From assembly GCA_012519885.1 (NCBI GenBank), contig JAAYPI010000062.1, forward strand, positions 1-41,132: a stretch of 41,132 bases of DNA, read 5' to 3'. How positions within the stretch are numbered: the first letter of the stretch is position 1; the number at the start of each line of letters is the position of its first letter. The notes below the pieces were generated by a model that was given only the letters and a program-made list of their open reading frames with translations, was not told the DNA's origin and made no database searches. This stretch comes from Bacteroidales bacterium. GTDB taxonomy: Bacteria > Bacteroidota > Bacteroidia > Bacteroidales > Paludibacteraceae. This document shows positions 24,528 through 27,376 of the stretch, piece by piece. Position numbers and translations under genes: made by a program.

Positions 24528-25772
24528 ATGGCAATCATTAAACCATTTAAAGGCATACGTCCACCCCAGTCTATTGTAGAACAAGTGGCTTCTCGCCCGT
24601 ATGATGTACTTAATTCCGAAGAAGCACGTAAAGAAGCAGAAGGAAACGAAAAATCATTGTATCGCATTATTAAACCAGAAATTGACTTTCCAATAGGAAA
24701 AGATGAACACGATGCAGATGTATACGAAAAGGCAGCTGAGAACTTTCAACTTTTTCAAGATAAAGGATGGCTAGTGCAAGATGATTCGGAGAAATATTAC
24801 ATATATGCTCAAACAATGAATGGAAGAACACAATACGGACTCGTTGTGTGTGCATCAGTTGATGACTATATGCAAGAAAAAATAAAAAAACATGAATTGA
24901 CTCGAAGGGATAAAGAGGAAGATCGCATGAAACACGTTCGTATTAACAATGCCAATATTGAACCTGTTTTTTTAGCATACCCAAACAATAAAGAAATAGA
25001 TGCGATTGTTAGTAAAACTATTATGCAAAAAGCAACATATGATTTTGTTGCTCCTGATGGTTTCGGACACCATTTTTGGGTAATCAATGACACAAACGAT
25101 ATTCATCGTATTACCAAATTATTTGCTAACATACCGTCTTTATACATTGCTGATGGTCATCATCGAAGTGCAGCAGCTGCTTTAGTAGGCAACGAAAAAA
25201 AACTCCAAAATCCCCATCATAAAGGAGACGAGGAATACAACTATTTCTTAGCCGTTTGTTTCCCTGATAACCAACTGAATATTATGGATTACAACCGTGT
25301 AGTAAAAGACTTGAATGGATTAAGTGATAGTGATTTTTTGAAAGCATTAGAAAAAAACTTTGTAGTAGAAGATAAGGGTACAGCAATTTATCATCCCAAT
25401 ACATTACATAATTTCTCTCTTTATTTAAGTGGGAAATGGTACTCTCTTACAGCCAAACCTGGCACGTATAACGACAATGATCCGATAGGTGTGTTGGATG
25501 TAACTATTTCCTCTAACCTTATACTAGATGAACTACTAGGGCTCAAAGACCTTAGAAGCGATAAACGTATTGATTTTGTAGGAGGAATACGTGGTTTAGA
25601 AGAATTAAAGAAACGTGTTGATAGTGGCGAAATGAAAGTAGCATTAGCGTTGTATCCCGTTTCCATGAAACAACTGATTGATATTGCTGACACAGGAAAT
25701 ATCATGCCACCTAAAACAACTTGGTTTGAACCAAAATTACGTTCTGGATTGGTAATTCATAAATTAGTTTAA
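24528..25772 (+). CDS. DUF1015 family protein
   Basis: This 414-residue protein has the DUF1015 hallmarks: IKPFKGIRPP at the start, VASRPYDVLN, ELTRRDKEEDRMKH near residue 125 and the conserved IADGHHRSAAAA near residue 207. It is predicted to be cytoplasmic. The molecular activity is not established as far as I know; it is repeatedly found beside serC and serA, and a role linked to serine or phosphoserine metabolism has been suggested on that basis. A terminator separates it from serA here. Confidence 0.92.
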   Translation: MAIIKPFKGIRPPQSIVEQVASRPYDVLNSEEARKEAEGNEKSLYRIIKPEIDFPIGKDEHDADVYEKAAENFQLFQDKGWLVQDDSEKYYIYAQTMNGRTQYGLVVCASVDDYMQEKIKKHELTRRDKEEDRMKHVRINNANIEPVFLAYPNNKEIDAIVSKTIMQKATYDFVAPDGFGHHFWVINDTNDIHRITKLFANIPSLYIADGHHRSAAAALVGNEKKLQNPHHKGDEEYNYFLAVCFPDNQLNIMDYNRVVKDLNGLSDSDFLKALEKNFVVEDKGTAIYHPNTLHNFSLYLSGKWYSLTAKPGTYNDNDPIGVLDVTISSNLILDELLGLKDLRSDKRIDFVGGIRGLEELKKRVDSGEMKVALALYPVSMKQLIDIADTGNIMPPKTTWFEPKLRSGLVIHKLV

Positions 25773-25801: not shown

Positions 25802-25809
25802 TACATTTG
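25802..25809 (+). promoter_or_regulatory. Promoter -7 element ahead of the pyr leader
   Basis: TACATTTG matches TAnnTTTG; no clear -33 TTG is present. It sits upstream of a short ORF and a terminator, and no second -7 box is seen between that terminator and pyrB. Confidence 0.5.
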
Positions 25810-25830
25810 TAGTGTGATATTAGCAAAGAA

Positions 25831-25896
25831 ATGGATGAATCTTTTTGTATATCTACTTTAGAAAATTTATGTATGAAAACATGTAATCTATCATAA
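25831..25896 (+). CDS. Possible 21-residue leader peptide upstream of pyrB
   Basis: ATG at 25831 opens a frame of 21 codons (MDESFCISTLENLCMKTCNLS) ending in TAA at 25894-25896. It starts about 20 bases after a -7 box, and a strong terminator hairpin starts one base after its stop. A ribosome finishing the peptide would cover the left arm of that hairpin. The arrangement resembles the translation-coupled attenuator of enterobacterial pyrBI, including a T-rich stretch in the frame (25841-25860). No homologue is known to me; it could be a chance frame. Confidence 0.35.
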   Translation: MDESFCISTLENLCMKTCNLS

Positions 25897-25897
25897 C

Positions 25898-25938
25898 AAT
25901 AAAGCCAGTATAACGAAAGTTGTAGTGGCTTTATTTTA
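25898..25938 (+). terminator. Terminator in the pyrB leader (possible attenuator)
   Basis: AATAAAGCCA (25898-25907) pairs with TGGCTTTATT (25926-25935). The stem extends inward through TATAAC/GTTGTA around a GAAA loop, with one G-G mismatch, and a T-rich run follows. It lies between the only visible promoter box and pyrB. Confidence 0.78.
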
Positions 25939-25971
25939 TTTGGATTTTAGTTTATTTATTACACAAAAAAA

Positions 25972-26889
25972 ATGGTTTCGATGAAAAACAAAAGCCTCGT
26001 GTCTATTTCAGACTTCTCCAAAGAAGACATATTGCGTATTCTTGTAGAAGCAGAAAAATTTGAGAACAATCCGAATACCCGCATTTTGGAAGGTAAAGTA
26101 ATAGCAATGTTGTTTTTTGAACCATCTACGCGTACAAGATTAAGTTTTGAAACAGCGGTAAACAGACTTGGAGGGCGTGTTATTGGCATTTCAGATGCAG
26201 CCACTTCAAGCTCTACGAAAGGCGAAACGCTAAACGACACCATCAAAATGGTAAGTGGCTACGCAGATTTAATAATTATGCGACATCATATAGACGGTGC
26301 TGCACGATACGCTTCAGAAGTATCTGCCGTACCGATTATCAATGCAGGAGATGGATCTAATCAGCATCCAACACAAACAATGCTTGATTTGTACTCCATC
26401 AAAAAAACGCAAGCCACATTGGAAAACCTTCAAATAAGTTTGGTTGGCGACCTAAAATATGGTAGGGCTGTACATTCTTTAGTAATAGCTATGAGCCATT
26501 TTAACCCTTCCTTTCACTTTGTTTCACCTCCAGAGTTACAAATACCAGATTCGTATAAACTGCTATGTAATAAACAAGGAATTTCTTACAAACAGTATGT
26601 GGAAATATCGGAAGCAATAAACAAGGCTGATATTTTATATATGACGAGAGTGCAACGCGAACGTTTTACAGACCCTGTAGAATACGAGAAAGTAAAAAAC
26701 ACATATGTACTAAAAAATGCTATGTTAGAAAACAGTAAACAAAACTTACGGATTTTACACCCGCTACCTCGTGTAAACGAAATTGATATGGATGTGGATA
26801 CAAATCCGAAAGCGTATTATTTTGAGCAAGCACGCAACGGAGTATATGTTCGTCAGGCAATTATCTGTTCAATATTAGGACTTCTTTAG
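25972..26889 (+). CDS. pyrB: Aspartate carbamoyltransferase catalytic chain
   Basis: This 305-residue enzyme forms carbamoyl-aspartate from carbamoyl phosphate and aspartate, the first committed step of pyrimidine synthesis. The carbamoyl-phosphate loop [13 protein letters not shown] (PSTRTR at 51-56) is present, followed by [31 protein letters not shown] and [13 protein letters not shown] second in-frame ATG three codons in is an alternative start. The regulatory chain gene pyrI follows after 22 bases. A promoter box, a short ORF and a terminator lie upstream, suggesting attenuation. Confidence 0.96.
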
Positions 26890-26911: not shown

Positions 26912-27376
26912 ATGAAAACAAATATCAATCACGAATTGGTGGTACAGGCTCTAAAAAATGGGACAGTTATTGATCATATACCATCTGATAAATTATTTCA
27001 AGTTGTATCTATACTCGCCCTACATACAATGCCTAACCAAATAACGATTGGAAATAATTTGGAAAGTAAAAAACTTGGTATTAAGGGTATCATTAAAATA
27101 TCTGATGTATTTTTTACCCCCAAGGAAGTAAATAAAATTGCACTAATTGCACCAAATGCAAAAATTAATATCATTAAAAATTACGAAGTTATCAAAAAAG
27201 TAGAACTTGTTATTCCTGATGAAATTAAAGATACCTTGCAATGTATCAACCCCATGTGTATAACCAACAAAGAGCATGTGCCCACACATTTTTATTTTAT
27301 TGACAAGAAAAAAAGATTAGCAAAATGTCATTATTGCGAACGAATTTGTAAAGATGAAGATTTAATGTTGAAATAA
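26912..27376 (+). CDS. pyrI: Aspartate carbamoyltransferase regulatory chain
   Basis: This 154-residue protein is the nucleotide-binding regulatory subunit that joins PyrB trimers and carries allosteric control by CTP and ATP. The C-terminal zinc domain has all four cysteines (C111, C116, C139, C142), in CINPMC and CHYC. The N-terminal allosteric domain begins with GTVIDHIPSDKLFQV. The gene lies between pyrB and a flavin reductase gene that starts 1 base after its stop. PyrI is widespread in Bacteroidales and rarer in other classes of the phylum, which helps place the organism. Confidence 0.95.
   Translation: MKTNINHELVVQALKNGTVIDHIPSDKLFQVVSILALHTMPNQITIGNNLESKKLGIKGIIKISDVFFTPKEVNKIALIAPNAKINIIKNYEVIKKVELVIPDEIKDTLQCINPMCITNKEHVPTHFYFIDKKKRLAKCHYCERICKDEDLMLK

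Follow-up and report, generated by a model that had tools for sequence, protein, structure and literature searches.

Attenuation in front of pyrimidine genes is familiar from the PyrR-controlled attenuators of the Bacillus subtilis pyr operon, in which a pyrimidine-responsive terminator precedes the pyr genes. An ORF that stays open up to the hairpin is not known to belong to the PyrR system, and the PyrR-binding RNA element constitutes an Rfam family. Attenuation of the pyrBI type, on the other hand, is to our knowledge described only from enterobacteria. In E. coli, tight coupling across pyrL prevents the terminator (PMC5021804), and a stop codon located near a terminator represses it, termination being near its maximum beyond about 27-30 nt (PMC4824070). 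In the Bacteroidota, strong clues of leader-peptide attenuation before amino-acid operons were presented for Flavobacterium psychrophilum (PMC9723704), and small ORFs resembling leader peptides were described in B. thetaiotaomicron, in a paper whose main text contains neither the word pyrB nor the word pyrimidine (PMC7366714). The first-pass annotation of the DNA studied here placed a possible translation-coupled attenuator in front of pyrB and knew of no description of such a mechanism in this phylum. In searches of the open-licence PMC literature, we found no report of pyrBI-type attenuation in Bacteroidota.

The stretch that we analysed (41,132 nt of a Paludibacteraceae genome, hereafter the window) carries, in this order, serC, a PGDH-like serA, a 414-codon ORF, pyrB, pyrI, a flavin-reductase-like gene, a LolA-type gene and trxB. 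The 414-codon ORF upstream of pyrB, for which NCBIfam gave no match, is presumably a DUF1015 gene; it stops at 25772, on the same strand as pyrB and 126 nt upstream of the hairpin described below. The window PyrB is 88% identical to that of the closest named relative found, a Paludibacteraceae MAG, and 52% identical to E. coli PyrB. Within the genus, the comparison relies on one genome, that of a sister species (L002, whose stretch is identical to that of L031). The relevant features are as follows:

25802..25809, + strand: -7 box TACATTTG, presumed to belong to the pyrB promoter, an exact TANNTTTG, with an identical box aligned in the sister species
25814..25897, + strand: presumed transcribed leader up to the hairpin, with a predicted start of transcription
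25831..25896, + strand: candidate leader ORF of 21 codons from the ORF listing, MDESFCISTLENLCMKTCNLS and stop (ATG at 25831, TAA ending at 25896)
25873..25896, + strand: internal in-frame ORF, MKTCNLS-stop, ending at a TCATAA also present in the sister (there MKHASS-stop)
25898..25936, + strand: terminator-like hairpin, dG -20.3 kcal/mol, z -7.6, aligning with the sister hairpin
25935..25945, + strand: interrupted U-tract, also containing TTTATTTG
25972..26889, + strand: pyrB, aspartate carbamoyltransferase catalytic subunit (TIGR00670, 385 bits, cut-off 237), with an alternative ATG at 25981
26912..27376, + strand: pyrI, aspartate carbamoyltransferase regulatory subunit (TIGR00240, 158.6 bits, cut-off 148.6)

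We propose that the stretch preceding pyrB probably, though by no means certainly, attenuates transcription in the manner of E. coli pyrBI, that this arrangement is common to many Bacteroidales, and that the window holds a diverged copy of it. The succession of box, 21-codon ORF and hairpin reported in the first-pass annotation is found exactly where it was placed, the hairpin arm starting at 25898, one base past the ORF stop. Its statements that the box is the only visible one and that no second promoter is visible past the terminator hold for exact matches: from the DUF1015 stop to pyrB, the + strand has no exact TANNTTTG other than TACATTTG. The chance expectation for the 126 nt ahead of the hairpin is about 0.10, scaled from 68.2 for 41 kb with both strands counted. 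They have to be qualified for near matches, as TTTATTTG, one mismatch from the -7 box, lies at 25935-25942 on the 3' edge of the hairpin. A search for sigma-70-type promoters between 24500 and 28500 found 16, with 19.2 expected and thus no excess. In a Flavobacterium, the sigma-A -7 box is TAnnTTTG and occupies positions -12 to -5 (PMC9723704); with this placing, the window +1 would be near 25814. The window leader ATG sits 21 nt past the box.

To compare loci, we took the pyrB upstream regions of 30 loci of relatives (window included), of 80 named GTDB species and of 80 genomes across the order, the latter being 80 of 189 matching genomes, mostly from the top of the list. The strict layout was defined as a TANNTTTG followed at 40-230 nt by a hairpin of -9 kcal/mol or lower and then at least 5 T in 8, at most 160 nt from pyrB; loci with a near-box, among them several of the Dysgonomonas type, were scored as misses. 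Locus L052, with 2 nt of upstream sequence, was left out of the hairpin-only, layout and control counts, and the window (L001) was excluded from the hairpin-only count and as a pyrB locus in the control comparison, and included in the layout and composition counts. With this definition, the box-leader-hairpin-pyrB layout is present in 88/189 Bacteroidales pyrB loci and missing in 101, about half. Because the locus sets partly overlap (L002-L030 with L031-L110), only the 56 representatives that remain after removing leaders more than 80% identical are non-redundant; these are still related by descent, and a few may be chance matches.

The layout is specific to pyrB among the genes tested. Indeed, it was found in 52/79, 14/29 and 21/80 loci of three pyrB sets (the first two overlapping) versus 2 of the 123 control genes, and together with an open ORF in 49, 11 and 18 loci versus a single control gene. 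These controls were the other genes at the 80 named loci with at least 100 nt of upstream space or with no neighbouring ORF found. The hairpin alone is unspecific, being present before 6/35 control genes with a divergent neighbour and before 28/71 with a tandem neighbour. The layout also occurs where the upstream gene is divergent (15/28 and 2/9 pyrB loci), and the hairpin is therefore not simply the terminator of the previous gene. The window hairpin resembles pre-pyrB hairpins of relatives both in place and in stem sequence (CCARTATAA).

Frames open up to or through the hairpin are found in excess in the longer leaders. Of the 44 representatives whose leaders are at least 80 nt long, 41 have an ATG ORF with no stop until at most 20 nt ahead of the hairpin (shuffles 11.0, sd 2.6, maximum 22), and when only the first ATG is considered this is still true of 37/44 (shuffles 7.6, sd 2.4, maximum 16). 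When start triplets were ranked by openness, ATG came first of 58 (37/44); CGT (8/10) and TTG (16/23) come near it, since triplets lying in one frame share openness. Among the 41 open ORFs, the stop falls no more than 20 nt ahead of the hairpin in eight, within its first 16 nt in 12 and beyond these in 21, positions which would agree with the stop-terminator distance rule of E. coli. The stop of the window ORF would fit this rule too, though chance would do equally. Moreover, the ATG is located 5-10 nt past the -7 box in 23/44 long leaders (shuffles 4.6, sd 2.0, maximum 11), and with the box at -12 to -5, as in PMC9723704, such start codons would lie only about 1-6 nt from the 5' end.

The form of the leader ORF varies between clades. 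The Marinifilaceae have ORFs of 78-85 codons that run through the whole hairpin; in 12/13 aligned loci their end is 3-10 nt short of pyrB, the exception being L079, with an overlap of 8 nt between ORF and pyrB. Dysgonomonas-type loci have ORFs of about 26 codons, whose end is commonly found 5-8 nt ahead of the hairpin. We also scanned a related genus of the window's family, g2 (20 of 32 listed matching genomes), and further loci of this family with wider limits (hairpin at most 200 nt from pyrB, leader of 30-230 nt). Box and hairpin are present in 19/20 g2 loci, and in 15/20 the ORF that begins at the first ATG extends 11-22 nt into the hairpin before its stop, the typical peptide being M.TRNFKYFFEQSNS...KPI-stop. 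Among the further family loci, of which 17/23 were covered (L193-L209, with L210-L215 left out), the layout was found in 5/17 and missing in 12/17.

In g2, codon substitution patterns show the predicted leader peptide to be under purifying selection. Of the 20 leaders, 15 passed a length filter of 80-112 nt, and 12 formed a core set for which the in-frame pN/pS of 0.53 compares with 1.05 and 0.91 in the other frames; with all 15 leaders the values are 0.58 versus 0.92 and 0.89, and for the first 16 columns 0.36 versus 1.42 and 0.62. The difference is modest in Ancylomarina (0.55 versus 0.69 and 0.78) and in Dysgonomonas-type leaders (0.69 versus 0.91 and 0.81), and in Marinifilum there is no in-frame signal (0.72 versus 0.74 and 0.69). 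Little or no signal in these clades would be expected if the act of translation outweighs the peptide produced.

The long leaders are also enriched in U, with a fraction of 0.40 in the 40 nt ahead of the hairpin versus 0.28 in pyrB or in upstream DNA. They fold only mildly more strongly than shuffles (mean z -0.74 for 44 leaders). For 13 Marinifilaceae leaders, three helices are predicted, around the start codon, before the U-rich stretch and at the terminator; compensatory changes were seen at 7/34 predicted pairs of the pause-type hairpin and terminator, the middle helix accounting for three, and the changes represent few events because most separate two subgroups. By inspection, the predicted order of hairpin, U-rich stretch and terminator in the Marinifilaceae is that of E. 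coli pyrBI. A consensus start-codon hairpin in Dysgonomonas-type leaders was considered and dropped, as RNAalifold applied to 17 leaders returned only the terminator. In six leaders of this type (L039, L046, L051, L055, L073, L107), the start-codon region, e.g. AGATTGTC, is complementary to a stretch such as GACAATCT directly preceding the U-rich part, a pairing that RNAalifold did not recover. The start-codon hairpin of the window is likewise weak, with a z of -1.05.

Set beside the E. coli pyrBI leader, with its 44-codon PyrL, the Bacteroidales leaders share the position ahead of a pyrB-pyrI operon and a predicted leader ORF that extends as far as the terminator hairpin; the gap between the end of PyrL and pyrB is 3 nt, close to what is seen in the Marinifilaceae. 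The window has a predicted terminator hairpin between promoter and pyrB, with a weak U-tract, and a U-rich leader (U 0.417 in the 60 nt ahead of the hairpin as folded in the layout scan, versus 0.312 window-wide), a property shared with the long leaders and lacking in the sister and in short leaders. The differences from E. coli lie in the ATG placed so near the -7 box in many long leaders, in a stop codon that in many cases immediately precedes the hairpin or falls within it, in different peptide sequences and in a Bacteroidota-type promoter, and, for the window copy, in the weak U-tract and in an ORF that is missing in the sister.

PyrR attenuators share with these leaders a terminator before pyr genes; here, however, an Rfam search of the window gave no match at gathering score, and in the window's genome (99.16% complete) a search with one model, NF003549 (PRK05205), which we take to be the PyrR model, gave a best score of 23.8 bits for a cut-off of 138. 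PyrR control is therefore unsupported. Attenuation of the trp/his type, of which there are strong clues in Flavobacterium psychrophilum (PMC9723704), has in common with our loci a short translated leader before a terminator, translation being here predicted, but the gene under study is pyrimidine-biosynthetic. The window peptide MDESFCISTLENLCMKTCNLS contains no codon run for the pathway's amino acid of the trp/his type, and inspection revealed no codon run for one amino acid shared among the leaders of relatives.

On these grounds, we infer the following course of events. RNA polymerase would start near 25814 and transcribe a leader containing the short ORF. If polymerase is slowed in the U-rich leader, presumably by low UTP, the leading ribosome would close the gap, its footprint at the end of the ORF would cover the 5' arm of the hairpin, and polymerase would continue into pyrBI. 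If polymerase runs ahead of the ribosome, as expected at high UTP, the hairpin would fold and transcription would end. UTP is the presumed signal, given the U-richness of the leader and the identity of the gene. In many relatives, a leader ATG 5-10 nt past the -7 box would let the ribosome load at an almost bare 5' end. The 21-codon ORF would be the working leader of the window, although it is uncertain whether this diverged copy acts through its ORF.

More tentatively, many Bacteroidales might sense UTP at pyrBI by ribosome-polymerase coupling on nearly leaderless leader peptides: with an AUG about 1-6 nt from the 5' end, the ribosome would need no Shine-Dalgarno sequence and could join the RNA at once on its emergence, and read-through would be set by how fast polymerase moves through the U-rich codons. 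The same logic would then accompany PyrBI in two distant phyla, through common transfer with the operon or through convergence. In a phylum-wide search (80 genomes, the window's own included), 31 genomes had a PyrB match at E 1e-40, and the 30 matches outside Bacteroidales are only 33-40% identical to the window PyrB, below the 52% of the E. coli protein, a pattern hinting that the pyrBI operon may have been transferred. If our proposal is correct, pyrBI-type attenuation extends beyond enterobacteria to another phylum, one in which the usual ribosome-binding sequence has little part in translation initiation, and transcription-translation coupling in Bacteroidales is tight enough to control a central biosynthetic operon. 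The leader and terminator of a Marinifilum, Dysgonomonas or g2-type pyrB would in that case provide a ready reporter of coupling.

Short leaders raise a different explanation. Leaders of less than 80 nt are A-rich rather than U-rich and give no ORF signal (open ORF in 7/12 versus 4.3 expected, first ATG in 3/12 versus 3.7). In the same family, a subclass with short (about 50 nt) A-rich leaders (L010, L061, L070, L076, L085, L090, L093-L095, L097) has the box and a conserved hairpin without ORF signal, and may be controlled differently. Such leaders, an A-rich sister lacking the window ORF and the recurrence of the stem sequence CCAAT in many relatives would suit a hairpin that is a regulatory, terminator-type element but whose read-through depends here not on translation but on some protein, small RNA or RNA structure. 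We consider this unlikely: neither an Rfam element in the window nor a PyrR-type protein over cut-off was found, the window leader is U-rich with an ORF ending at the hairpin, and the g2 stem also encodes the end of the selected peptide, in most cases KPI-stop or KPM-stop, so that coding could account for the sequence of the stem.

With translational attenuation as the preferred reading for the relatives, the window copy itself must be judged by its own hairpin and ORF. The terminator had been called strong, and this is correct for the stability of the hairpin, which none of 200 shuffles equalled and which is far beyond chance. However, the U-tract is interrupted (TTTTATTTGG), the hairpin contains a G.G mismatch, and the site is absent from the output of a generic terminator scan. 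The d'Aubenton-Carafa score is 10.5 for the window and -4.6 for the sister, versus 18-38 for six relatives picked by hand and 49.7 for E. coli pyrBI. As to the ORF, 31% of shuffled window leaders yield an ATG ORF of at least 15 codons reaching to within 20 nt of the hairpin, and in 22% the stop of such an ORF falls in the range from -20 to +16 relative to the hairpin. We therefore rejected the window ORF as stand-alone evidence.

The alignment with the sister species shows the box, the hairpin and the TCATAA ahead of it in both species, while the leader between these ends has diverged. The sister leader is A-rich (U 0.217 in its final 60 nt) and has other short ORFs, MKHASS-stop ending 4 nt ahead of the hairpin and MLHHNNIKPI-stop ending inside it. 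The window start codon lies opposite ATA and the 21-codon frame is missing there; conservation of the ORF-terminator spacing, on which the first-pass annotation had made its proposal depend, is thus lost for the exact ORF within the genus, although the architecture is kept across the order. The translation-coupled, pyrBI-like logic that it proposed for Bacteroidota is well supported by the comparison across the order; the part that relies on the window's own ORF is weak, this ORF being within chance expectation and unconserved in the sister. Within the hairpin, 25899-25913 reads ATA AAG CCA GTA TAA (IKPV-stop), resembling the KPI-stop and KPM-stop leader ends of relatives; this frame is interrupted by a stop shortly before the hairpin, with no usable start following that stop.

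The window copy could be in decay, the remnant of an attenuator still working in relatives, with pyrB expressed by unregulated read-through of a weak terminator. The low terminator scores of both species, the leader ORF that differs between them and the IKPV-stop frame left without a usable start would all be in line with such a decay, yet box and hairpin have been retained in both species despite the divergence of the intervening leader, and we regard a relic as quite unlikely.

It is very unlikely that the hairpin merely ends a serC-serA-DUF1015 transcript and that pyrB has a promoter downstream, e.g. at TTTATTTG: DUF1015, encoded on the same strand, does end 126 nt upstream, tandem genes often have a hairpin alone between them, and the sister (L031) carries by inspection TATATTTA, also one mismatch off the box, aligned to TTTATTTG, but the two near-boxes deviate from the consensus at different positions, the exact box lies before the hairpin with none past it, the layout recurs behind divergent genes, and hairpins end as near as 16-23 nt to pyrB (e.g. 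L065, L050, L010, L005), a gap that leaves little room for a promoter.

The gene upstream of pyrB deserves a last remark. In six loci without the box-hairpin layout (L042, L044, L047, L060, L098, L110), pyrB lies 14-110 nt behind a gene on the same strand, and this gene is DUF1015-like by its 3' end. L193-L195 and L201 perhaps belong to the same class, as they have the PyrB start type in common. In the window's genus, the putative attenuator sits between the DUF1015-like gene and pyrB.
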